A stretch of DNA of 47,154 nt from Nakamurella sp. (lineage in GTDB: Bacteria > Actinomycetota > Actinomycetes > Mycobacteriales > Nakamurellaceae), in NCBI GenBank assembly GCA_017882715.1, contig JADGOY010000009.1, forward strand, positions 1 to 47,154, given 5' to 3'. The notes below the pieces were generated by a model. It saw only the letters and a program-made list of their open reading frames with translations, did no database searches and was not told the DNA's origin. A program made the translations under genes and the position numbers. Shown here one piece after another: positions 1 through 13,050 of this stretch (position 1 is the stretch's first letter; the number at the start of each line of letters is the position of its first letter).

Positions 1-995
1 GAGCCGAGAGTCTCCACCGCGGAAAGGTTCTTCACGATCGCGTTCCGCTTGGCCAACCCCACCGCGCCCAGCGACAGGATCACCTGCACGACGGTGGGCA
101 GCGCCTCCGGGATCGACGCGATCGCCAGCGCGATCGCCGTCACGAACAGCGCCCTGCCCGACTCCCCGCGCCACAGACCCAGGGCGAACATCACGATCAT
201 CGTCACCAGTGCGGCCAACGCGATCCACTGCGTCATCCTGGTCAGCTGACGGGTCAGCGGGGTCTGCTCGCTGCCGGATGCCTTCAACAACCCGGAGATC
301 CTGCCGACCTGGGTGTCGGCGCCGGTGCCGGTCACCACCATCACGCCGCTGCCGTGGGTGACGGGCGTGTTCATGAACGCCATGTTCGTCTGGTCACCCG
401 CCGCCAGATCGTGTTTGCCCAACGCCGCCGCGCCCTTACCGGCCGGGGTGCTCTCGCCGGTCAACGCGGACTCGTCGATCTGCAACGCGTTGGCCTGGAC
501 GACGCGACCGTCGGCCGGTACCTGGTCCCCGGCGGTCAACAGCACCACGTCACCGACGACCACCTGATCGGCCGGAATCGCCGCCTCGACGCCGTCCCGG
601 CGAACCCGGGCGGTGGTCTTCATCATCGACTTCAGCGCGTTCATCGCGCTCTCGGCCTTGCCCTCTTCGCGCAGGCCGATCACCGCGTTCACCACGGTCA
701 GGATGAACAGCAGTGCGGCGGTGCTCCATTCCGCGATCAGCAGCGACACCACCCCGGCCGCCACCAGGATGATCTGCATGAAGGTGCGGTATTCGCCGAG
801 GAACCGCTGCCATTCCGGCTTGGGTTTCTCTTCGGGCAGCGCGTTCGGTCCGTTCTTCGCCAGCAATCGGTCCGCCTGATCGGCGCTCAACCCCGCGGTC
901 GGGTCGACGTGCAATTGGGTTTCTACCGCGTCCGCCGACAACCCGTACCACTCGGTTGACGCCCCCGCCGGACGAGGCTTAGCACTGATGGTCAT
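1..995 (-). CDS. P-type cation-transporting ATPase, N-terminal part (cut by window edge)
   Basis: Reading the minus strand from ATG 995 gives 331 codons open to the window edge. The product is the first third of a P2-type (Ca2+/Mn2+-like) ATPase, which uses ATP to move cations across the membrane. Visible parts are the cation ATPase N-terminal region (about residues 15-70), membrane helices near 72-110, the actuator motif TGES at 179-182, further helices near 255-305, and the ion-site motif IPEALP near 295-300. The frame leaves the window at NLSAVETLGS, just before where the phosphorylated DKTGT loop belongs. It starts 60 bp after ppk2 on the same strand, so the two are probably co-transcribed. 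A CtpF-like role is inferred from the dormancy-type neighbours. Ion specificity cannot be read from this part. Confidence 0.93.
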   Translation of the reverse strand, partial: MTISAKPRPAGASTEWYGLSADAVETQLHVDPTAGLSADQADRLLAKNGPNALPEEKPKPEWQRFLGEYRTFMQIILVAAGVVSLLIAEWSTAALLFILTVVNAVIGLREEGKAESAMNALKSMMKTTARVRRDGVEAAIPADQVVVGDVVLLTAGDQVPADGRVVQANALQIDESALTGESTPAGKGAAALGKHDLAAGDQTNMAFMNTPVTHGSGVMVVTGTGADTQVGRISGLLKASGSEQTPLTRQLTRMTQWIALAALVTMIVMFALGLWRGESGRALFVTAIALAIASIPEALPTVVQVILSLGAVGLAKRNAIVKNLSAVETLG

Positions 996-1055
996 CTCGG
1001 TAGGTCCTTTCCCCCGTTTTCATCCCCTGGTCGCGCCCGTCCACGACGGGCAAGT

Positions 1056-2048
1056 TCAGCTGTGATGACGCTTGTTGTCCGTGCGCGTCTGCGTTTCGGA
1101 GGCCTGCGCCACCAACTCGTCCTCGAACGGATCCGGAGACGCACCGGCGGGCGCCTCCCCCTCCAGCAGGGCCTTCACGTCCGTCAGATCCTTCAGCTTG
1201 GCGGCATCCACCGTCGGGTACTGCGGATCGATATCGGCCAGGGTGTGCGCGAGAATCGCCGACACACAGATGCGGGCGAACCACTTGCGGTCCGCCGGGA
1301 TCACGTACCACGGAGCCCATTCGGTGCTGGTGTGCGTCAGCATCTCGGAGAACGCGACCTGGTAGTCGTCCCAGAAGGCACGTTCCTTCGCGTCGTTCGG
1401 GGACAGCTTCCAATTCTTGTCCGGCAGGTCGACCCGCTTGAGGAACCGGATTCGTTGCTCCTCCTTGGACAAATTCAGGAACAGCTTGACGATCTTGAAA
1501 CCGTTCTCGGCCAGGAACCGTTCCCAATCATTGATCTCCCGGTACCGGCGGGCCCAGATGTCCTTGCCCTTCGTCCCCGGCGGAAGTTTCTGGCGATCCA
1601 GGACATCCGGATGAACGCGCACCACCAGTACCTCTTCGTAATGGGAGCGGTTGAAGATGCCGATATCCCCGCGGGCGGGCAATCGCTGCGCATATCGCCA
1701 CAGGTAGTCGTGGTCCAACTCTTCCGACGACGGGACCTTGAAGCTGGAGACGTGCACACCCTGCGGGTTCACCCCGCTCATCACGTGCCGGATGGTGCCG
1801 TCCTTGCCCGCAGCATCCAGCGCCTGCAGGCAGACCAGCATCCCCCAGGTGTCCTGCGCGGCCAGCTTGTCCTGATACTCGCAGAGCAGGCTCACCCCAG
1901 CCTGCAGCAGTTCCGTGCCGTCCTTCTTGTGCACGAAACGTGCCTTGTACCCCGGATCGAAATCCTTCCCCAGGGTGACCTTCGTGCCCGGCTTCACCCG
2001 CAACGGCTCGATCAGTTCGGCGACGAGCTTCGCCCTGTCCTGGACCAT
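1056..2048 (-). CDS. ppk2: Polyphosphate kinase 2 family protein
   Basis: This 330-residue protein is a PPK2-family polyphosphate:nucleotide phosphotransferase, moving phosphate between polyphosphate and nucleotides in the cytoplasm. The Walker A loop is DAAGKDGT (about 78-85). It is followed by the family signature FKVPSSEELDHDYLWR (about 103-118) and a Walker B region with FNRSHYEEVLVVRVHP (about 132-147). Length fits a one-domain PPK2. The acidic and polar last 40 residues are not part of the core fold. The ATG at 2048 has the purine-rich AGGGGGAG just upstream. It is followed after 60 bp by the P-type ATPase. The subclass (AMP, ADP or GDP as acceptor) is not decided from sequence. A DosR-like site lies about 350 bp upstream. 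Confidence 0.95.
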   Translation of the reverse strand: MVQDRAKLVAELIEPLRVKPGTKVTLGKDFDPGYKARFVHKKDGTELLQAGVSLLCEYQDKLAAQDTWGMLVCLQALDAAGKDGTIRHVMSGVNPQGVHVSSFKVPSSEELDHDYLWRYAQRLPARGDIGIFNRSHYEEVLVVRVHPDVLDRQKLPPGTKGKDIWARRYREINDWERFLAENGFKIVKLFLNLSKEEQRIRFLKRVDLPDKNWKLSPNDAKERAFWDDYQVAFSEMLTHTSTEWAPWYVIPADRKWFARICVSAILAHTLADIDPQYPTVDAAKLKDLTDVKALLEGEAPAGASPDPFEDELVAQASETQTRTDNKRHHS

Positions 2049-2440
2049 CTGTTCTCCCCCTGTTGCTTGCTTCCGGTGGCGATCGACCGTGTGCGGCCAC
2101 CAATATCTCGGCTGCGTTATCCCGAAGCTGTTCGGTCTTTCGCCGGCGGGTCGGCGGCCCGGAAACCACCGGCGCAGCGCTGGATCGGCAGGCGCACACG
2201 AGCGGGTCCGAGCATGGTCAGTGCGGAACGTTGCCGCGATCGGTCTGCTGGTCGAGCGGGACCCGAGCGTGGGATCCAGTCGCGCACAGGGGGCATCGGC
2301 GCGTCATGCCGGCCACTGAGCGCGCGCTTCATCGCGGCCTCCACTCCGATGAGGTAGGACCCGTCGTTACCACCTTCATCCGTCGGCGCCGTGGTGATCA
2401 GTGCCAAAGGTCCCGATCATGGTCCCCAAAATCCTGCGCG
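2049..2440. other. Leader/intergenic region upstream of ppk2
   Basis: About 390 bp with no convincing gene. A 96-codon minus-strand frame (2117-2407, TTG start) is open but arginine- and proline-rich without a recognisable fold. An internal ATG near 2332 could start a shorter peptide. Either the ppk2 mRNA has a long leader, or an unrecognised small gene lies here. A DosR-like box sits at the far end (2401-2414). Confidence 0.4.
2401..2414 (-). promoter_or_regulatory. DosR-like box upstream of ppk2
   Basis: The minus strand reads GGGACCTTTGGCAC, close to the mycobacterial DosR consensus GGGACYTWMGKCCC (two mismatches by eye). A second GGGAC half-site, in TTGGGGACCATG, lies just upstream on the same strand. 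The site is about 350 bp from the ppk2 start, which is long for a direct activator site, so the regulated start is uncertain. Confidence 0.45.
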
Positions 2441-2662
2441 TCAGCCGCGGGGGTAGTCCTCCTCGCCACCGACCGGTCGCTGCTGTTCCAGGACGTCGGC
2501 GGGTTCGGCCTCGGCAGTCAGTTCGCCGTTTTCCTCGCCGCCGACGTCGCTCGACGCGTCGGGGTCGACGCTCTGGCGCTGTTCGGCGACATCGGCGGGA
2601 TCGGCCTCGCCGAGAACATCATTGCGGAAAACGTCTTCGCCGCCATCGTTCCTGTCCGCCAT
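2441..2662 (-). CDS. Small acidic protein with duplicated EAxPADVxEQ motif
   Basis: This 73-residue, strongly acidic, soluble protein has no recognised domain. It contains two copies of one motif: EADPADVAEQRQSVDPD (about 19-35) and EAEPADVLEQQRPVGGE (about 51-67), which points to an internal duplication. Short acidic proteins with this motif are, as I recall, common and uncharacterised in Actinomycetes. The start MADRNDGG at 2662 is preferred over a longer open frame, because the added 133 residues have no protein-like character and run back into acg. Two DosR-like boxes lie within 100 bp upstream, shared with the divergent acg, so it may be a member of the same regulon. Function unknown. 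Confidence 0.75.
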   Translation of the reverse strand: MADRNDGGEDVFRNDVLGEADPADVAEQRQSVDPDASSDVGGEENGELTAEAEPADVLEQQRPVGGEEDYPRG

Positions 2663-2704
2663 CGTCGGCCTTTCTGTCGGTGCGGGTGCCATGCTCGTCG
2701 GGGT

Positions 2705-2718
2705 GGGCCCAAGGTACC
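2705..2718 (-). promoter_or_regulatory. DosR-like box facing the small acidic gene
   Basis: The minus strand reads GGTACCTTGGGCCC, 12 of 14 against GGGACYTWMGKCCC by eye. It lies 42 bp upstream of the gene starting at 2662 and 24 bp from the second box at 2743. Paired boxes are common at DosR promoters in mycobacteria. Confidence 0.5.
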
Positions 2719-2742
2719 CCGGGGCGTCGTGCCCGGGGTGGC

Positions 2743-2757
2743 GGGACGTTCGGCCCT
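2743..2757 (+). promoter_or_regulatory. DosR-like box upstream of the Acg-type gene
   Basis: The sequence GGGACGTTCGGCCCT matches the DosR consensus at every position but one (G for Y after GGGAC). It lies 50 bp upstream of the start at 2808, a normal activator distance. This is the best of the boxes in the island. Confidence 0.7.
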
Positions 2758-2807
2758 GTGAGGTCCGAGGCCCGAGGCCGACGATGTGGTGAACAGGGGA
2801 CGCGGAG

Positions 2808-3863
2808 GTGGATGGCATGAAGGACGCATTCCCGGAGCAGAGCACCATCCACGCCGCGCTCGAGATGGCCGTTCGTGCGCCCTCGCTGCACAACTCCCAG
2901 CCGTGGCGCTGGCGGATCGGCGAGCGCTCGATCCACCTTTTCGCCGACCATTCCCGGATGCTGCAGGCCACGGACCCCGAAGGTCGCGAGCTGATCATCA
3001 GCTGCGGCGCCGCGCTGCACCATCTGCGTGTCTCGCTGGCGGCCCTCGGCTGGTCATGCACGATTCACCGGCTGCCGGATCGTTCCGATCTGCGGCACCT
3101 GGCAGCGGTCGAGCTGGAACAGACCGAACCTCAGGCTGACGCGGTGGTGCTGGCCGCTCAGATCCCCCGCAGGCGGTCGGACCGGCGCCCGTACCGGTCA
3201 TCGGACCTGCCACCGTTCGCCGTCACGCAGATCAACCGGAATGCAGCCGCCTACGGGATGACCGTGCGACTCGTGACCGATCCACATTCTCGCCGGGAAT
3301 TGTCGCTGGCGGTGGCCGAGGCAGACGACATCGAGTCGGTCGACGTCGAGTACCGGAACGAGGTGGCGGCCTGGAGTGGCCAGCACTTCGGTGCCGATGA
3401 CGGTGTCCCGGCCAAGAGCGTGCCCCCTGATGCCGGATACGGCGGCGTCCGGCTGCGGCATTTCGCGCACCCGGAAATGCAGACGGGTCCGGGAACGGTT
3501 GCCCCCGACGGCGATGTCGGGACGCTGATCGTGTTGGGCACCGCGACCGACGACGTCTATGCCTGGCTGCTGACCGGTGAGGCGACGGGCACGATCCTGT
3601 TGACCGCCACCGGATTCGGGCTCGCCAGTTGCCCGTTGACCCAGCCGCTGGAACTGCCACGCACCCGCCGCCTGGTGCGCGATGCGGTGCTGGGCGGAAC
3701 GGTCCATCCGCAGATGATCTTGCGGGTCGGCTACCCGACCACGGATCGGGAATTGCCGGTTACCCCGCGACGGCCGGTATCCGACGTGCTGGACTCCTCC
3801 GACGGCACGACGGCCGGGGTGTGGGCGAGGCCGGGGCAGCGAGACCGGGTGCGGGGACTCTGA
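2808..3863 (+). CDS. Acg-family FMN-binding nitroreductase-like protein
   Basis: This 351-residue protein resembles Acg (Rv2032) and its relatives. These are nitroreductase-fold flavoproteins that bind FMN and are thought to hold rather than turn over the cofactor. The N-terminal motif RAPSLHNSQPWRW (about 23-35) is the family mark. The second half of the fold includes a WLLTGEATGTILLTATGFGL segment and an LRVGYP motif near the C-terminus. The start could be ATG 2808 or ATG 2817 (MKDAF); both are weakly supported by the upstream sequence GGACGCGGAGGTGG. It is divergent from the small acidic gene and shares its DosR-like boxes. In mycobacteria acg is a DosR regulon gene, which agrees with this setting. 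Confidence 0.92.
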   Translation: MDGMKDAFPEQSTIHAALEMAVRAPSLHNSQPWRWRIGERSIHLFADHSRMLQATDPEGRELIISCGAALHHLRVSLAALGWSCTIHRLPDRSDLRHLAAVELEQTEPQADAVVLAAQIPRRRSDRRPYRSSDLPPFAVTQINRNAAAYGMTVRLVTDPHSRRELSLAVAEADDIESVDVEYRNEVAAWSGQHFGADDGVPAKSVPPDAGYGGVRLRHFAHPEMQTGPGTVAPDGDVGTLIVLGTATDDVYAWLLTGEATGTILLTATGFGLASCPLTQPLELPRTRRLVRDAVLGGTVHPQMILRVGYPTTDRELPVTPRRPVSDVLDSSDGTTAGVWARPGQRDRVRGL

Positions 3864-3953
3864 TCTGAGGTCGCCCGGGTGGTGGTGACGATCGTCCTCA
3901 CGGTCGCGGCATTCCGGCCGGGAGCAGCGGGAGTCAGGGTTCCTGGACGCCGC

Positions 3954-4012
3954 GTTGCGCTGATTCCCCGGTTGTTGCGCTGATTCCCCGGTTGTTGCGC
4001 TGATTCCCGGTT
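3954..4012. repeat. Tandem repeat, 20-bp unit x3
   Basis: Three copies in a row of GTTGCGCTGATTCCCCGGTT; the third lacks one C. It lies in the 380-bp gap between acg and the hydrolase gene, about 90 bp after the acg stop. No gene is seen in this gap. Confidence 0.9.
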
Positions 4013-4073
4013 GGTGATCGCCGGCTGACGAAATGTGTCGCCGCTATGACCTCCGACCGCCTCGGGCGTCCAC

Positions 4074-4118
4074 CCCGAAGAGCGCTACCTCGAAGAGCGC
4101 TACCCCGAAGAGCGCTGC
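4074..4118. repeat. Tandem repeat, 15-bp unit x3
   Basis: Three copies of CCCGAAGAGCGCTAC with single-base changes, 60 bp after the 20-bp repeat in the same gap. Confidence 0.88.
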
Positions 4119-4149
4119 CGCGAACCGAATGCCGCCCGCGTCCGTATTG

Positions 4150-4181
4150 ATCGGTGTGACGGGCAAACAACCCGCACCGAT
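4150..4181. promoter_or_regulatory. Imperfect inverted repeat upstream of the hydrolase gene
   Basis: Outer arms ATCGGTG and CACCGAT are exact complements, with inner CGGG and CCCG also pairing around a CAAACAA loop and one small bulge. It lies 63-94 bp before the GTG at 4244. It could be an operator or an RNA hairpin; there is no T-run to support a terminator. Confidence 0.4.
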
Positions 4182-4243
4182 TTAGCGGATTCCCCGGGCC
4201 CAGCGGTATTGGGCACATCAGCCGACCCTTTCGGAGGTTTACT

Positions 4244-5011
4244 GTGCGCGCTCAAGTGGCTCAATCCGTGATCGCAACGCGGCTCGCGAAGGTGAATCGA
4301 TGGCGGACGATGGCGACCCGGTGCAGGGACAGCATGCTCAGCGGCGACCGGTCGACAGCGTCGATCCGCTATTGGGGGCACGGGGAACGCGGACGGGCAC
4401 CCGTGCTGTTCATCCACGGTTATTGCGGCAGCGAGCGCGTCTGGGCACCCCTGCGCTCCGCCCTGTCCGGCGCGGGTTTCAACTGCCTGATCTCGTTGTG
4501 CTACAACGCCTTCACCACGGATGTGCACGAGGTTGCCGGGAGGTTGGTCGACGAATCGATGCGCGCGATGGATGCCACCGGAGCGGGACGGGTTCATCTG
4601 ATCGGGCACAGCCTCGGCGGTCTGATCGTTCGGGAAGCCGTACAGCGCAGGGGCCTGGCGGCGTATACCGGCACCGCCGTCACCATTGCCACTCCGCACG
4701 CCGGAACGTGGCTGGCCCGTTTCGGTCTCGGACCCTGCGCACGCCAGATGCGGCCAGGATCGGCTTTGCTCACCGAACTCGGTCAAACGCGGCTGAGCAC
4801 GACCCCCCGCTGGGTGGTGCTGCACGGAGGCGCGGACCGCGTGGTCCCGGCAAGATCAGCGATTCTCGACTCGAAACAGACGCAGGTCGTGACCCTCCGA
4901 CACCCGGACGCCGGCCATCGGACGATCACCCGGCACGCCGGCGTCGTCCGGTCGATCGTCACCGAACTGCTGCATGCCGATCGGCCGCGACCCGCTCTGG
5001 TGGCCGCGTGA
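4244..5011 (+). CDS. Alpha/beta hydrolase, lipase-like
   Basis: This 255-residue protein has the alpha/beta-hydrolase pattern of a lipase or esterase. Features are the oxyanion motif LFIHGY (about 55-60), the nucleophile elbow GHSLGG with Ser123, Asp198 in GGADRVVP and His225 in AGHRTI, which together make a plausible triad. The N-terminal 40 residues are basic, without a clear signal peptide. GTG 4244 is chosen because GGAGGT lies 5 bases upstream. It ends 10 bp from the convergent gene that follows. The natural substrate is unknown; the dormancy-type neighbours suggest lipid or ester turnover, which is inference. Confidence 0.88.
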   Translation: MRAQVAQSVIATRLAKVNRWRTMATRCRDSMLSGDRSTASIRYWGHGERGRAPVLFIHGYCGSERVWAPLRSALSGAGFNCLISLCYNAFTTDVHEVAGRLVDESMRAMDATGAGRVHLIGHSLGGLIVREAVQRRGLAAYTGTAVTIATPHAGTWLARFGLGPCARQMRPGSALLTELGQTRLSTTPRWVVLHGGADRVVPARSAILDSKQTQVVTLRHPDAGHRTITRHAGVVRSIVTELLHADRPRPALVAA

Positions 5012-5021
5012 GATCGGTGGC

Positions 5022-5537
5022 TCACAAACCCTCGACATAGTTCTTGGCCCTGGACAGGTCCCAGCCGGTCCGTTCGCGGACCAGCTTGATCGCCTGGATC
5101 TTGTCTCCGTCGGCGACGAGCGACCGTGCGTCGAGCTCGGTGTCCAGGTCGACCGGCTCGCTGGACGGCGAGATGTCCGTGCTGGCGGGTGGTCTCGCAG
5201 GTTGCCTCGACGACGGTGAGGACTGCTGCGATCTGCGGGCGATCTTCTCGACCACCCTCACCGCGTCGGCCAGCGAGAGCCCGGTGCGCTCCTTGAGCAG
5301 CTTCACCGCGTCGAGTTTCTTGCCCTGCTGGTAGAGGTCGGCCACCGTTCCCGCCAGGGCCGGGTCGATCGTGACCTGGGTAGGGTCGACGCGCGAACGC
5401 CGAGTCCGGTTGGTCCACGTCAGCACGATGACCATGGCGATGACGGCCGCGATCAGGATCAACCACCAGTTCTCCACCTGTCCATGGTAGAGACCGCGAC
5501 CTTTCACGCGCGTTGCACCTCTGGACACCACGCTCAT
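5022..5537 (-). CDS. Membrane-anchored protein with two L7/L12-like C-terminal motifs
   Basis: This protein of up to 171 residues has one membrane helix (about 24-42, WWLILIAAVIAMVIVLTW). A cytosolic part follows with two copies of a short helical motif resembling the ribosomal L7/L12 C-terminal domain: KLDAVKLLKERTGLSLADAV (about 74-93) and a second, IQAIKLVRERTGWDLSRAK, near the C-terminus. A Ser/Pro-rich linker separates them. The true start may be a GTG just before the helix (VENWW), which would give about 150 residues. It is convergent with the hydrolase gene. Proteins of this kind are uncharacterised; binding to other proteins through the L7/L12-like motifs is a guess. Confidence 0.75.
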   Translation of the reverse strand: MSVVSRGATRVKGRGLYHGQVENWWLILIAAVIAMVIVLTWTNRTRRSRVDPTQVTIDPALAGTVADLYQQGKKLDAVKLLKERTGLSLADAVRVVEKIARRSQQSSPSSRQPARPPASTDISPSSEPVDLDTELDARSLVADGDKIQAIKLVRERTGWDLSRAKNYVEGL

Positions 5538-5551
5538 CGACGACGGCAGCT

Positions 5552-5682
5552 ATGGCGCCGCTGCCCGGGGTGCAGCTGTACCGGGCATTCGGGTTCGATG
5601 ACGTCGAACAGGTGGTGCTGACCTGCCGGACGACGTCACGATCGACGCCGTCGCCATGCAGCGCCCCATCCGGCCCGCCTGA
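5552..5682 (+). pseudogene. Remnant of a GNAT acetyltransferase C-terminus, frameshifted
   Basis: The plus strand reads APLPGVQLYRAFGFDDVEQ, then VVLT. After a one-base loss near 5622-5624 it continues as LPDDVTIDAVAMQRPIRPA and a stop at 5680-5682. This is the usual C-terminal end of a GNAT N-acetyltransferase (the GVxLYRxFGF helix followed by the last strands). Upstream sequence is taken by the opposite-strand gene, so only about 43 codons of the old gene survive. It is a decayed leftover of a gene lost from this spot. Confidence 0.7.
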
Positions 5683-5686
5683 AGTG

Positions 5687-6298
5687 TCATCCGGTGGTCA
5701 CGGTCGGTTCCGGAGCACCGACCGATGCCCGGATCACCCCTGGAACGGCTTCGGCGAGGAACTGGGCCACGGGGCGATCCGACGCCTCGTCGAACAGGTC
5801 GCGGACGACGACTTCACCGTCGGTCACCTGAACCGACCATCGCGCCTGACCGCCGAGAACCTGCAGGTGCTTGCGGACGTCAGCGGCGATCTCGGCATCC
5901 GTGCGGGACAGCACCCGGACCACATCCCGGCGGGTGACCACACCCACCAGCTTGGTCCCGTCGACGATCGGCACGCAGCGGCGATGCTCGGTGAGCATCA
6001 CCTTGGCCAGCACCGAGATGTCGGCATCGTGGCTGACCCCGACCGCCGGGGTGGTCATGACCTCTGCGACGGTCCGCCCGGGACCTTGCGTCGCGGCCGC
6101 CGGGTCACCCGACGACTCGCTGGGGAATCTGTTGCGGATCAGGTCCGCCTCGGTGACGATGCCGACCAGCGCGCCCTTGTCGTCGACCACGGGAAGGGCG
6201 CTGAATCCACGGTAGGTGAGCATTTCGGACGCCTTGCCGACGGTGGCGGTGGGCAGCACCGTCAACACCGATCTGGTCATGATCTCTCGTGCGCGCAT
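5687..6298 (-). CDS. CBS-CBS-BON domain protein
   Basis: This 203-residue cytosolic protein has two CBS domains (about 1-57 and 78-132) and a BON domain (about 134-196). The repeated pattern VVDDKGALVGIVTEADLI and IVDGTKLVGVVTRRDVV marks the CBS pair, which usually binds adenine nucleotides. ATG 6298 is chosen over a longer open frame because GGAGG sits 6 bases upstream and MRAREIMTRSVLTV is the standard CBS start. The mycobacterial relative Hrp1 (Rv2626c) is strongly DosR-controlled but has only the CBS pair. The gene is divergent from the dehydrogenase gene, and two weak DosR-like boxes lie between them. Confidence 0.92.
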   Translation of the reverse strand: MRAREIMTRSVLTVLPTATVGKASEMLTYRGFSALPVVDDKGALVGIVTEADLIRNRFPSESSGDPAAATQGPGRTVAEVMTTPAVGVSHDADISVLAKVMLTEHRRCVPIVDGTKLVGVVTRRDVVRVLSRTDAEIAADVRKHLQVLGGQARWSVQVTDGEVVVRDLFDEASDRPVAQFLAEAVPGVIRASVGAPEPTVTTG

Positions 6299-6361
6299 GG
6301 CGAACCTCCGTGGATAGTCGCTGGCACACCGACCGTAGGTCCGCGATGCCGGCGCGGGCTG

Positions 6362-6375
6362 CTGCCGGAGGTCCC
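6362..6375 (-). promoter_or_regulatory. Weak DosR-like box facing the CBS-BON gene
   Basis: The minus strand reads GGGACCTCCGGCAG, 11 of 14 against GGGACYTWMGKCCC, with a perfect first half. It is 64 bp upstream of the start at 6298. Confidence 0.35.
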
Positions 6376-6383
6376 CGCCGACC

Positions 6384-6397
6384 GGGGCTTTGGTCAC
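6384..6397 (+). promoter_or_regulatory. Weak DosR-like box facing the alcohol dehydrogenase gene
   Basis: The sequence GGGGCTTTGGTCAC is 11 of 14 against the DosR consensus. It lies 94 bp upstream of GTG 6492 and 22 bp from the box on the other strand. Support comes from the paired placement and gene content more than from the match alone. Confidence 0.35.
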
Positions 6398-6491
6398 CTG
6401 CGGCGGTCCGCCACGGCGCAGGAGGATGGTGCCAGGACGCCGGATGCCCATCGACCGTCCCGGCACCGCCCCGCAGCCATCGGAGGTCACC

Positions 6492-7541
6492 GTGACCAGC
6501 CCCGTCTCGTCCACGACCACAATTCCCGGCACCATGCGCGCCTGGTCGGTGCGGCAGCCCGGCCCGATGAGCGGGCACCCGCTGAACATCTCGGAAAAGC
6601 CTGTCCCCACTCTCGGACCAGCCGATCTGCTGGTCCGGGTCACCGTGTGCGCGGTGTGCCGGACCGACTTGCACGTCACCGAGGGCGACCTGCCCGTGCA
6701 TCGGCAGAACGTCACCCCGGGTCACGAGATCGTCGGCCGGGTAGCCGCTCTCGGCTCTGCTGTGGATGGCTTCGCCGTGGGGGATCAGATCGGCGTTGCC
6801 TGGTTGCGGCACACCTGCGGGTCATGTGCGTACTGCCGCCGAGGCGCGGAGAACCTGTGCCCGGACTCGACGTACACCGGCTGGGACGCCGACGGTGGCT
6901 ATGCCGAATACACGACGGTCCCGGCTGCTTTTGCCTACCGGCTTCCGCCCGGCTACCCCGACCGAGAGTTGGCGCCGCTGTTGTGCGCGGGGATCATCGG
7001 CTTCCGCGCCCTGCGGCGCAGCGGGCTCGCCCACGGCGGGCGGCTGGGCATCTACGGGTTCGGCGCCAGCGCGCATCTCACCGCTCAGGTGGCGCTCGCC
7101 GAATACGGCGCCCGCGTGCACGTCCTCACCAGGTCGGCGGCCGCCCGGCAACTGGCACTGGATCTGGGGGTCGATTCGTCGGCCGGAGCGTACGACCAGC
7201 CGCCGGAACCACTCGACGCAGCCATCATCTTCGCGCCGGTCGGCGAGCTGGTGCCGGTCGCCCTTCGCGCCCTGGACCGCGGCGGGATCCTCGCGGTCGC
7301 CGGCATCCACCTGTCCGACGTGCCCGCCCTCAACTACGAACGCGAGCTGTTCTACGAGCGCGAGCTGCGCAGCGTGACGGCAAACACCCGCCGCGACGGT
7401 CAGGACTTCCTGGCCCTCGCCGGGCAGCATCACCTTCAGGTGACCACGTCGGCGTACCCACTTGCCGACGCCGACCGGGCGTTGGCCGACCTTGCCGCCG
7501 ACCGGGTCAACGGCGCGGCGGTGCTGCTCTGCGAGACCTGA
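6492..7541 (+). CDS. Zinc-dependent alcohol dehydrogenase family protein
   Basis: This 349-residue medium-chain dehydrogenase/reductase oxidises alcohols or reduces aldehydes with NAD(P). Catalytic zinc ligands are Cys56 (CAVCRTDLH) and His78-Glu79 in GHEIVG. The four structural-zinc cysteines are C109, C112, C115 and C123 ([15 protein letters not shown]). The dinucleotide-binding loop is [11 protein letters not shown], about 180-190. GTG 6492 is preferred over an earlier in-frame start at 6390, since GGAGG lies 5 bases upstream and the extra 34 residues are not conserved-looking. It is divergent from the CBS-BON gene. Substrate is not known. Confidence 0.93.
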
Positions 7542-7601
7542 GAAGCCTCAGATATCCAGCGTGAGACCGGGCGGGACGGCAGGACAATTGCCTGTGCCGC
7601 T

Positions 7602-7615
7602 GGGTCCTTCGGCCC
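7602..7615 (+). promoter_or_regulatory. DosR-like box upstream of the universal stress gene
   Basis: The sequence GGGTCCTTCGGCCC matches the DosR consensus at 13 of 14 positions (T for A at position 4). It is 67 bp upstream of ATG 7683 and has the same core TTCGGCCCT as the acg box at 2743. Confidence 0.6.
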
Positions 7616-7682
7616 TGTCACTCCCGGCGGACGGGCGGGAAGGTGATGTCAGGCACATGGCCCAAGAGGAGAGGAGCGGACG

Positions 7683-8852
7683 ATGACCAGCAATGAAGGT
7701 CAACGCGCGGCCATGGAAGCGCGCCGAGCGGTCATCGGGAACACCGCACCCGTGTCGCGTCACGACGCGGCCCTGCAGCGGTATCTGGCGGCACTGGAAC
7801 ACGCCGATCACGTCACAGCGGCTTCGCACGGCGAGCTGCCCACCCAATCCGTACCCGTCCGGGTCGGGGTAGCCGCCGCCGCAGCAGCCTCGGTCGACGA
7901 ACAGATGGCACCCATCGGTACCCGCGAGACCTCCACCGACCCACAGCGCGTCGGCGAGAAGGTCAGCAGCCGAACCGATCTCGTCATCGTCGGGATCGAC
8001 ACTTCGTCGGGTTCGTACACCGCATACGGCTGGGCCGCAGAGGAAGCCGCCCGGCGGCACGCCGTCCTGCGGCTGGTGCATGCCTACACCGCGCCCGCTC
8101 GAGGATTCCCCGGTTACAACCCGATGTCACACGAGTCCCAGGCCGCGCTGCGGGCCGAGGGTGAGGAATTGCTGGAGGACACCGCGGCGACCCTGCGCCA
8201 GACGCACCCGACCCTGACCATCGACACCCGCCTGATCAACGGCGACCCGGTCGCGGCGCTGCAGGCACAATCCGAGCACGCCAGATTGACGGTCGTCGGA
8301 TCTCGCGGGAGCGGCAGGTTGACCGGTCTGGTGCTGGGCTCGGTCGCGATGGCGATCGCCTCCACCAACCCGGCTCCGGTGGCCGTCATCCATCCGCACC
8401 AGCGGGCCTACCCCAGCGGCCCGGTGGTGGTCGGCGTGGACGGCTCACCGACCAGCGAGGCGGCCATCGCCTTCGCCTTCGAGTCCGCCGCGTTGCGGCA
8501 CACGAAACTGGTTGCCGTGCATTCCTGGAACGACGCGGTCGTCGACGCGGCCTTCCCCGAACACCCGATTCTGATCGACCCGGCGGAGATCGACACCGAA
8601 GAACGCGCGCTGCTGTCCGAGCGACTCGCCGGGTGGCACGACAAATACCCCGACGTGGTCGTCGAGCAGACCGTCGTGCACGGCCGGCCGACGCCGGCTC
8701 TGCTCGAATATGGCGAGACCTCCGAACTGCTGGTGGTGGGCAGCCGTGGCCGCGGTGGGTTCAAGGGGATGCTGCTGGGTTCGACCAGCCACGCATTGAT
8801 CATGCACTGCCAATGCCCGGTCGTGGTGGTTCGGCCGAATGCCCTCAGCTGA
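7683..8852 (+). CDS. Tandem universal stress protein with N-terminal extension
   Basis: This 389-residue protein has two UspA domains (about 99-237 and 243-386). Each ends in a nucleotide-binding loop: GSRGSGRLTGLVLGS in the first and GSRGRGGFKGMLLGS in the second (G-2x-G-9x-G-S pattern), so ATP binding is likely. In front is an extension of about 98 residues, Ala-rich and partly helical, that is not part of the usual two-domain protein of about 290 residues. ATG 7683 has GAGGAGAGGAG upstream. Double-domain Usps such as Rv2623 are DosR regulon members in mycobacteria. The next gene starts 88 bp downstream on the same strand and may be co-transcribed. Confidence 0.93.
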   Translation: MTSNEGQRAAMEARRAVIGNTAPVSRHDAALQRYLAALEHADHVTAASHGELPTQSVPVRVGVAAAAAASVDEQMAPIGTRETSTDPQRVGEKVSSRTDLVIVGIDTSSGSYTAYGWAAEEAARRHAVLRLVHAYTAPARGFPGYNPMSHESQAALRAEGEELLEDTAATLRQTHPTLTIDTRLINGDPVAALQAQSEHARLTVVGSRGSGRLTGLVLGSVAMAIASTNPAPVAVIHPHQRAYPSGPVVVGVDGSPTSEAAIAFAFESAALRHTKLVAVHSWNDAVVDAAFPEHPILIDPAEIDTEERALLSERLAGWHDKYPDVVVEQTVVHGRPTPALLEYGETSELLVVGSRGRGGFKGMLLGSTSHALIMHCQCPVVVVRPNALS

Positions 8853-8879
8853 TTCACGCCGGTCTGATTCACACCGGTC
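8850..8879. repeat. Tandem repeat, 15-bp unit x2
   Basis: Two copies of TGATTCACGCCGGTC, one base different, starting exactly at the stop codon of the universal stress gene, so that the duplicated unit includes the TGA. Confidence 0.85.
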
Positions 8880-8940
8880 TGGGCTCACCGACGGCCACGA
8901 CCGGATTGCCGATATCGGCACCTGAAATGTGGAGGACGCA

Positions 8941-9561
8941 ATGCGATCGGCTGGATCGGCTCAGCCACAACCCGACAGTTGGGAACGGCCTCGACGGCTG
9001 ATGTTCACGGTCTGGCGCAACCCCATGGCGCGCTCCTGTGACCGTGTCCGGGCTGCGTTGGCGTTGTTGCTGATCGGCCTGTGGATCCTGGCAGTTCCGG
9101 TGGCAGCAACGGTCGGATCGATGATCTGGGTCAACGCATCCGCGACCGCTGCGCAGGAAAACGCCGAACGCACGAAGGTGACCGCCGAACTGCTGGCCGA
9201 TGCGCCACTGCCACAGATGAGTGCGCACGGGGTACCGATCAGCACCCCGACCATAGCGGCCGCGAGATGGCTGAGCAGCAATGGGATCGTGCAGACCGGG
9301 CTGGTCCAGGTCAGCTCGGGACAGCTTGCCGGAGACAAGATCTCGATCTGGCTCGACCGCTCGGGGGCCGTCACCGAAGCCCCGCTGAACCCCTCCGACG
9401 CGGCCGCCCGGGCGATTGCGATCGGGCTGGGCGGGTGGCTCGCCGTCGGCCTGGTCCTGGGATCGCTGTACTGCATGGTCCGCCGCCAGATCGACGTGCG
9501 AAGCCGGGCGCGCTGGGACGCGGAATGGCTGCTGGTGGAACCGTTGTGGAGCCACCGCTGA
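8941..9561 (+). CDS. Rv1733c-like two-helix membrane protein
   Basis: This 206-residue protein has two membrane helices (about 37-61 and 157-178). Between them is an extracytoplasmic segment of about 95 residues containing Ala-Glu-rich and GISTP-like stretches. The N-terminal part RLMFTVWRNPMARSCDRVR ahead of the first helix is typical of the Rv1733c family, whose founding member is a DosR-regulated membrane protein of unknown function. GGAGG lies just upstream of ATG 8941. It is probably expressed with the stress protein gene 88 bp upstream. It is convergent with the P55 gene. Confidence 0.85.
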   Translation: MRSAGSAQPQPDSWERPRRLMFTVWRNPMARSCDRVRAALALLLIGLWILAVPVAATVGSMIWVNASATAAQENAERTKVTAELLADAPLPQMSAHGVPISTPTIAAARWLSSNGIVQTGLVQVSSGQLAGDKISIWLDRSGAVTEAPLNPSDAAARAIAIGLGGWLAVGLVLGSLYCMVRRQIDVRSRARWDAEWLLVEPLWSHR

Positions 9562-9614
9562 ACGTCCCGCAGCCGAAAGGCCAATAGGAACACATGGCGG
9601 CGGCGCCGCGAGTC

Positions 9615-9704
9615 TTCCGGCGGCGCGGTGAATGTTCCGGCGGCGCGGTGAATGTTCCGGCGGCGCAGCGATCATCTACGTTGTCAACGACAATCTACGT
9701 TGTC
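9615..9704. repeat. Tandem repeat (20 bp x2.8) and a 12-bp direct repeat
   Basis: Unit TTCCGGCGGCGCGGTGAATG occurs at 9615-9634 and 9635-9654, with a diverged partial copy to 9670. Next to it, ATCTACGTTGTC occurs at 9674 and 9693; the second copy contains the stop codon of the P55 gene. The repeats fill the 133-bp gap between two convergent genes. Confidence 0.85.

Positions 9705-12091: not shown

Positions 12092-13050
<959 letters not shown>

Follow-up and report, generated by a model that had tools for sequence, protein, structure and literature searches.

The window analysed here is the whole 47,154-base contig JADGOY010000009.1 of a draft genome of Nakamurella sp. (4.65 Mb, 403 contigs, 88.6% complete). 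Its first 9.6 kb holds an island of ten genes, which a preliminary description, made from the letters alone, had taken for a ready-made dormancy cassette with boxes like those of the mycobacterial hypoxia regulator DosR. Here, we report the gene content of this island, its candidate boxes and the regulators encoded elsewhere in the genome, and argue, with a probability of about four in five, that this island belongs, as one target locus, to a scattered hypoxia regulon of the DosR/OsdR type (OsdR being the corresponding regulator of Streptomyces coelicolor).

Proteins of the window were searched against Pfam and NCBIfam profiles. All ten proposed reading frames were present, and most of the families given to them before were confirmed. 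A P-type cation ATPase (CtpF-like; N-terminal part, 331 amino acids; 3 to 995, reverse strand) is truncated by the contig end; the specific P-type models all stayed below their cut-offs, only the general model TIGR01494 passed, and the name CtpF could not be fixed because the gene runs off the contig at base 1. Sixty base pairs upstream of it lies a PPK2-type polyphosphate kinase gene (1056 to 2048, reverse; PF03976, TIGR03709), and beyond that a gene for a small acidic protein of 73 amino acids (2441 to 2662, reverse) with no family in either search. Divergent from the latter, acg (2808 to 3863, forward) encodes an Acg family FMN-binding nitroreductase-like protein (NF047509, 327.5 bits against a cut-off of 199) that aligned with the solved Acg protein 2ymv. 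An alpha/beta hydrolase gene (4244 to 5011, forward; PF00561) is followed by a gene (5022 to 5537, reverse; PF00542) whose product joins an L7/L12 C-terminal-domain-like segment to a hydrophobic N-terminal stretch seen by eye; two short segments of this protein resemble part of the L7/L12 C-terminal domain, one being the Pfam match and the other found by eye. The double CBS-domain protein (5687 to 6298, reverse; PF00571 in two stretches) matched Rv2626c weakly (4e-7, among 38 CBS-type sequences), so its earlier label "Hrp1-like" is a loose one. A zinc-type alcohol dehydrogenase gene (ADH; 6534 to 7541, forward; TIGR02822), its start placed where the family model begins, precedes usp (7683 to 8852, forward; PF00582), which encodes a double universal stress protein (USP) with about 98 extra N-terminal residues, aligned across both domains with TB31.7 of Mycobacterium tuberculosis (2jax, 2.4e-45). 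This extension (7683 to 7977) is shared with a paralogue on contig C17 (L219:8142-8440; 55% identity overall), and a USP match beginning within the first 60 residues was seen at only 1 of the 80 named acg loci of other genomes surveyed below. Last comes a gene for an Rv1733c family protein (8929 to 9561, forward; NF050032, 134.6 against a cut-off of 80), downstream of usp. By these profiles, three target families of the DosR regulon (Acg, USP and Rv1733c) are predicted above their cut-offs.

Candidate boxes were scored with three matrices, none built with sites of this genome, across 401,316 bases of it, a non-random sample consisting of the window and 354 kb picked around histidine-kinase contigs and acg paralogues. 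The first matrix held 14 published OsdR sites hand-picked from Table 1 of PMC5069765, the second held 24 distinct sites from upstream of acg in other genera, taken from 32 of 80 rows (the other 48 having been dropped by score or position), and the third joined the two sets (387 sites above 4 bits in the 401 kb). Patterns were counted over the whole genome with the word GGGACNTTCGGCCC and the published consensus GGGHCNWWNGNCCCB, the core of the DosR consensus quoted in PMC2947987; genome-wide claims rest on these counts because a sequence-only model search scored just 150 of 2,387 candidates.

The strongest candidate box, CGGGACGTTCGGCCCT (2742 to 2757), lies between the divergent acidic gene and acg, 80 bp before the former and 51 bp before the latter. 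Within the 401 kb it ranked first by the published OsdR sites, third by the acg-upstream sites and first jointly (16.7 bits); it matched the published consensus exactly at 2743, where the preliminary description had put it, and was the fourth of four sites at E ≤ 10 among the candidates scored by the sequence-only model. Exact GGGACNTTCGGCCC occurs at only five places in the 4.65 Mb, this box among them. The box for acg and the acidic gene is clearly beyond chance and is among the best DosR-type sites of the genome.

The other boxes of the island are graded more cautiously. Before usp, TGGGTCCTTCGGCCCT (7601 to 7616, forward; 67 bp from the start) is exact to the published consensus at 7602 and one mismatch from GGGACNTTCGGCCC; it ranked 18 by the acg-upstream matrix and 21 jointly, and is probably beyond chance. 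The Rv1733c-like gene lies 76 bp behind usp, so a single promoter may serve both. The expectation that the island's sites would head a matrix ranking thus held for the 2742 box, for which equal-scoring sites are rare, and not for the 7601 box, which about 20 sites in the 401 kb equal or exceed. A possible weaker box, AGTGCCAAAGGTCCCG (2400 to 2415), stands about 350 bp upstream of ppk2, at the site proposed before (2401); it ranked 10 by the acg-upstream matrix and 16 jointly, is one mismatch from the published consensus by eye and reached only 6.1 bits by the published-site matrix. Adjoining the strong box, TGGGCCCAAGGTACCC (2704 to 2719; previously 2705) is weak, with ranks of 23 (acg-upstream) and 39 (joint). 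A further site at 3884 to 3899, new here, lies between acg and the hydrolase gene, about 345 bp from the start of the latter; it scores well (joint rank 14) but is far from any start and has two mismatches to the published consensus by eye, and we consider it doubtful as a box. Short tandem repeats (units of 20, 15 and 20 bp) occupy 3954 to 4124 and 9598 to 9671, in the gaps that follow acg and the Rv1733c-like gene.

Could stress genes merely happen to adjoin here, with GC-rich palindromes as background? The genome gives 73 strand hits to the published consensus, spread over 44 distinct places, and 43 to the reversed control, so a lone match is not proof, and at mid-range scores the site density in real DNA is no higher than in simulated DNA. 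Against this, two of the 44 places fall inside the island, which is 0.2% of the genome (about 0.09 expected), and its 1,501 bp of intergenic DNA hold five sites of at least 9 bits where 0.24 would be expected from other non-coding DNA (gene limits being those of a simple caller using G+C at the third position). With the top rank of the 2742 box, the genes beside the five exact sites and the recurrence of the box upstream of acg across genera, chance is already disfavoured and has next to no claim.

Besides the island acg, exact GGGACNTTCGGCCC stands before a second acg (contig C346, 65 bp to the start), two usp genes (C240, 81 bp; the paralogue on C17, 397 bp) and an L-lactate dehydrogenase gene (C215, 34 bp; TIGR01771, 342.7 against 303.55), on four other contigs; the C17 paralogue has, in addition, a consensus site 73 bp upstream of its start. 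With one mismatch allowed, GGGACNTTCGGCCC gave 38 strand hits and its reversed form 11, and such sites precede a flavohaemoprotein-like gene (C47; 245.8 bits, below its cut-off of 432), a CBS gene and a PPOX-like gene (26.3, below 84.9). Further high-ranking matrix sites lie before cydA of cytochrome bd (C8) and the gene for pyruvate phosphate dikinase (PPDK; C298). Established knowledge of the pathways places cydA, acg, usp and the genes for lactate dehydrogenase and PPDK among those of low oxygen or stress.

Regulators were sought across the genome, as were their kinases. NarL-type regulators sit beside GAF kinases on contigs C171, C314, C207 and C176, and an additional kinase lies on C98. 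NCBIfam offered no DosR-specific model for the regulators (the nearest, MadR, stayed below its cut-off), so the solved DevR and a tree were used instead. Against M. tuberculosis DevR (3c3w), the C171 regulator scored 304 bits, and the next relative 136. In the tree (55 rows selected for their similarity to the C171 regulator, five long rows flagged, with these four as the only NarL-type regulators from this genome), those of C171, C314 and C207 fell within the group holding the mycobacterial DosR proteins (fork 100/99) and that of C176 fell outside; the tree leaves the branching order among these paralogues unsettled. In the kinases of C171 and C314 the GAF domain matches DosT/DevS, and all five kinases examined keep the signature GFPxxHPxM...LYL, a segment that presumably contains the haem-binding histidine. 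On this evidence the genome encodes a DosR-type regulator and DosS/DosT-type haem-GAF kinases, with haem binding predicted; the search for dosS and dosR homologues suggested in the preliminary description thus returned three DosR-clade regulators and five DosS/DosT-type kinases, on other contigs. Between the regulator and kinase genes of C171 lies an Acg-like gene (168.8 bits, below the family cut-off of 199). On contig C264 (L026:5358-6137), a receiver-like stretch and a truncated, DosS-like HisKA_3 stretch share one frame, which sits behind a large PAS kinase with a DosR-type box about 32 bp upstream.

The recognition-helix segment AEKTVKNYVS is common to all four regulators, and S. coelicolor OsdR binds sites of DevR, although the genes under its control are those of development and stress (PMC5069765). 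Both points would suit real boxes read by another NarL/LuxR-type regulator, for instance the DosR-like C176 paralogue, in answer to a signal other than oxygen or nitric oxide (NO). The co-targets are nonetheless of hypoxia type (cydA, lactate dehydrogenase, PPDK, acg, usp) and the kinases keep their haem-GAF signature, and we hold this account to be distinctly unlikely.

Recurrence was examined at 80 named acg loci, with up to 10 kb fetched on each side (60 of the 80 at full length) and gene starts extrapolated from tblastn matches. Of 61 genomes searched, 40 had an Acg match; within the genus, 11 of 17 did. A site of at least 8 bits lies within 340 bases at the acg start in 33 of the 80 loci, against 4.8% of 3,200 random windows. 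When 20 loci of relatives were added (100 in all; control rate 8% at the same threshold), such sites stood upstream of usp in 33 of 89 cases, of Rv1733c in 10 of 18 and of the P-type ATPase gene in 7 of 14; the acg row of this survey is partly circular, and PPK2, the L7/L12-like protein and the hydrolase had no scorable row. For CBS genes, the 9 of 30 largely reflect a shared acg box (of eight CBS rows printed, six lie between CBS and acg, and five of these are the acg box itself).

In many actinobacteria, acg, usp, CBS, Rv1733c, ATPase and DosR genes are found clustered. Of six companion families, one or more lie near acg in 58 of the 80 named loci, two or more in 19 and four or more in 4, compared with 1 of 15 comparison regions of the own genome with any; a DosR-type gene is near acg in 38 of the 80 and a DosS-type gene in 29. 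An Acg match and an Rv1733c protein above its cut-off occur together in 14 genomes, and in 9 of these they lie within 25 kb of each other. An ADH 64 to 69% identical to that of the island lies about 1 kb from acg at six named loci (L090, L096, L098, L099, L112, L116), mostly of Mycolicibacterium or Mycobacterium; L099 is labelled as an Acidobacteria metagenome-assembled genome. The claim that such a contiguous set is unusual therefore survives in its degree only: no locus of the 80 has all six families (the best has five), but clustering is common elsewhere, as also in a Streptomyces region described in PMC5069765, and the island is merely unusually dense, not unusual in kind.

That density, six companion families in 9.6 kb and more than at any of the 80 loci, together with a slightly low G+C (0.675 against 0.694 in the rest of the window), is what a self-contained mobile cassette acquired as a unit would explain. 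The G+C lies, however, inside the spread of 27 pieces of the own genome (mean, 0.690; standard deviation, 0.015; range, 0.649 to 0.716), the window has no tRNA, and no integrase or transposase is among the ten assigned genes (mobility families were not specifically searched, and one flank is hidden by the contig end). The window also lacks a DosR or DosS match. The regulators lie on other contigs, and so do the remaining four exact boxes, one on each of four contigs, which makes the island one locus of a distributed regulon rather than a self-contained cassette; the "ready-made dormancy cassette" is accordingly dropped, and acquisition as a unit is very improbable. Some 2.5 kb past the island (12092 to 13015) lies a protein of resuscitation-factor type, with an Rpf-type transglycosylase-like domain and LysM (PF06737, PF01476).

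The reading of the island as a target locus of a scattered DosR/OsdR-type regulon builds on its genes and boxes, the genome rank of the latter, the regulators and the recurrence of the box. Low oxygen or NO, as the presumed signal, would lead haem-GAF kinases of the DosS/DosT type, encoded elsewhere, to phosphorylate a DosR-type regulator. The acting DosR paralogue would then bind the box at 2742 to 2757 and turn on acg with the divergent acidic gene, would bind the 7601 box and turn on usp with the Rv1733c-like gene, and might also use 2400 to act on ppk2 and the P-type ATPase gene. The predicted induction would supply products that help cells to sit out a non-growing, low-energy state.

Beyond the background of consensus matches and mid-range scores given above, several findings weigh against this reading. 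The boxes proposed before the CBS and ADH genes (at 6362 and 6384) were rejected, with joint ranks of 257 and 159 and acg-upstream ranks of 445 and 46 for the sites at 6361 and 6383, so that a DosR-type box is found in the promoters of acg and the acidic gene, less strongly in that of usp, and not in those of CBS and ADH; elsewhere, too, only 2 of 14 ADH genes have a site of at least 8 bits. At that threshold, sites are not clearly enriched before the genes for DosR (6 of 50) or DosS (0 of 6). The hydrolase, L7/L12-like and acidic genes have no relative in the 80 named acg loci. The exact site on C17 is distant from its gene, and among the 30 of 38 one-mismatch sites that were read in context, many are inside genes. 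The missing DosR and DosS match in the window (best E, 1.9) must be read with its left flank lost at the contig end, and the draft state of the genome (403 contigs, 88.6% complete) counts on the same side.

More speculatively, a duplicated DosR/DosS network, with its three DosR-clade regulators and five DosS-like kinases, may have drawn PPK2 and the P-type cation pump into the core hypoxia regulon, with paralogues dividing the targets. We think this rather unlikely; if true, it would tie polyphosphate and ion handling directly to oxygen-sensed dormancy. In a literature search, none of the entries listed named PPK2 as a DosR target, which is weak evidence. The regulon reading itself would extend a tuberculosis-type dormancy circuit, through genome-wide box ranking beyond gene names, to an actinobacterium that, by the regulator tree, is apparently outside the mycobacteria. 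Genes for cytochrome bd, lactate dehydrogenase, PPDK, Acg and USP appear, as predicted from their boxes, to be under one switch, and the genome can be set beside others to ask which DosR targets are ancestral.

Among known systems, the DosR/DevR regulon of M. tuberculosis shares with the island genes for Acg, USP (TB31.7-like), the Rv1733c family, CBS proteins and P-type ATPase, and the two genomes have in common a DosR-type regulator and GAF kinases matching DosT/DevS. The targets in M. tuberculosis are more spread than those of the island. Beyond the M. tuberculosis set, the island has PPK2, the L7/L12-like protein, ADH and the hydrolase, none of which is, to our knowledge, a DosR target there. 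Three Lentzea loci (L089, L101, L108) with clusters of acg, usp, Rv1733c, CBS, ATPase and ppk2 genes have four or five of the six companion families near acg, and in L089 and L108 usp lies about 0.7 kb from Rv1733c; they differ in spreading across up to 20 kb, in gene order and in having no DosR in the fetched stretch. In S. coelicolor (PMC5069765), the regulon of OsdR (SCO0204) and the region from SCO0167 to SCO0219 likewise include a contiguous cluster of stress genes, among them usp and genes of nitroreductase-family and zinc-type dehydrogenase proteins, and 20 of the 22 genes from SCO0198 to SCO0219 are predicted targets of eight OsdR sites. That cluster contains osdRK and nitrate reductase genes, whereas the regulators here are on other contigs and no nitrate reductase is among the ten genes; its nitroreductase is likened to Acg at the family level only. 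PPDK is a predicted OsdR target there, as it is a candidate here, and the predicted OsdR site of SCO5979, CGGGACCTTCGGCCCT, is one base off the 2742 box of the island and of the same box class (PMC5069765). The island thus looks like an ordinary part of the response known from tuberculosis bacteria and Streptomyces, and not like a new kind of cassette.

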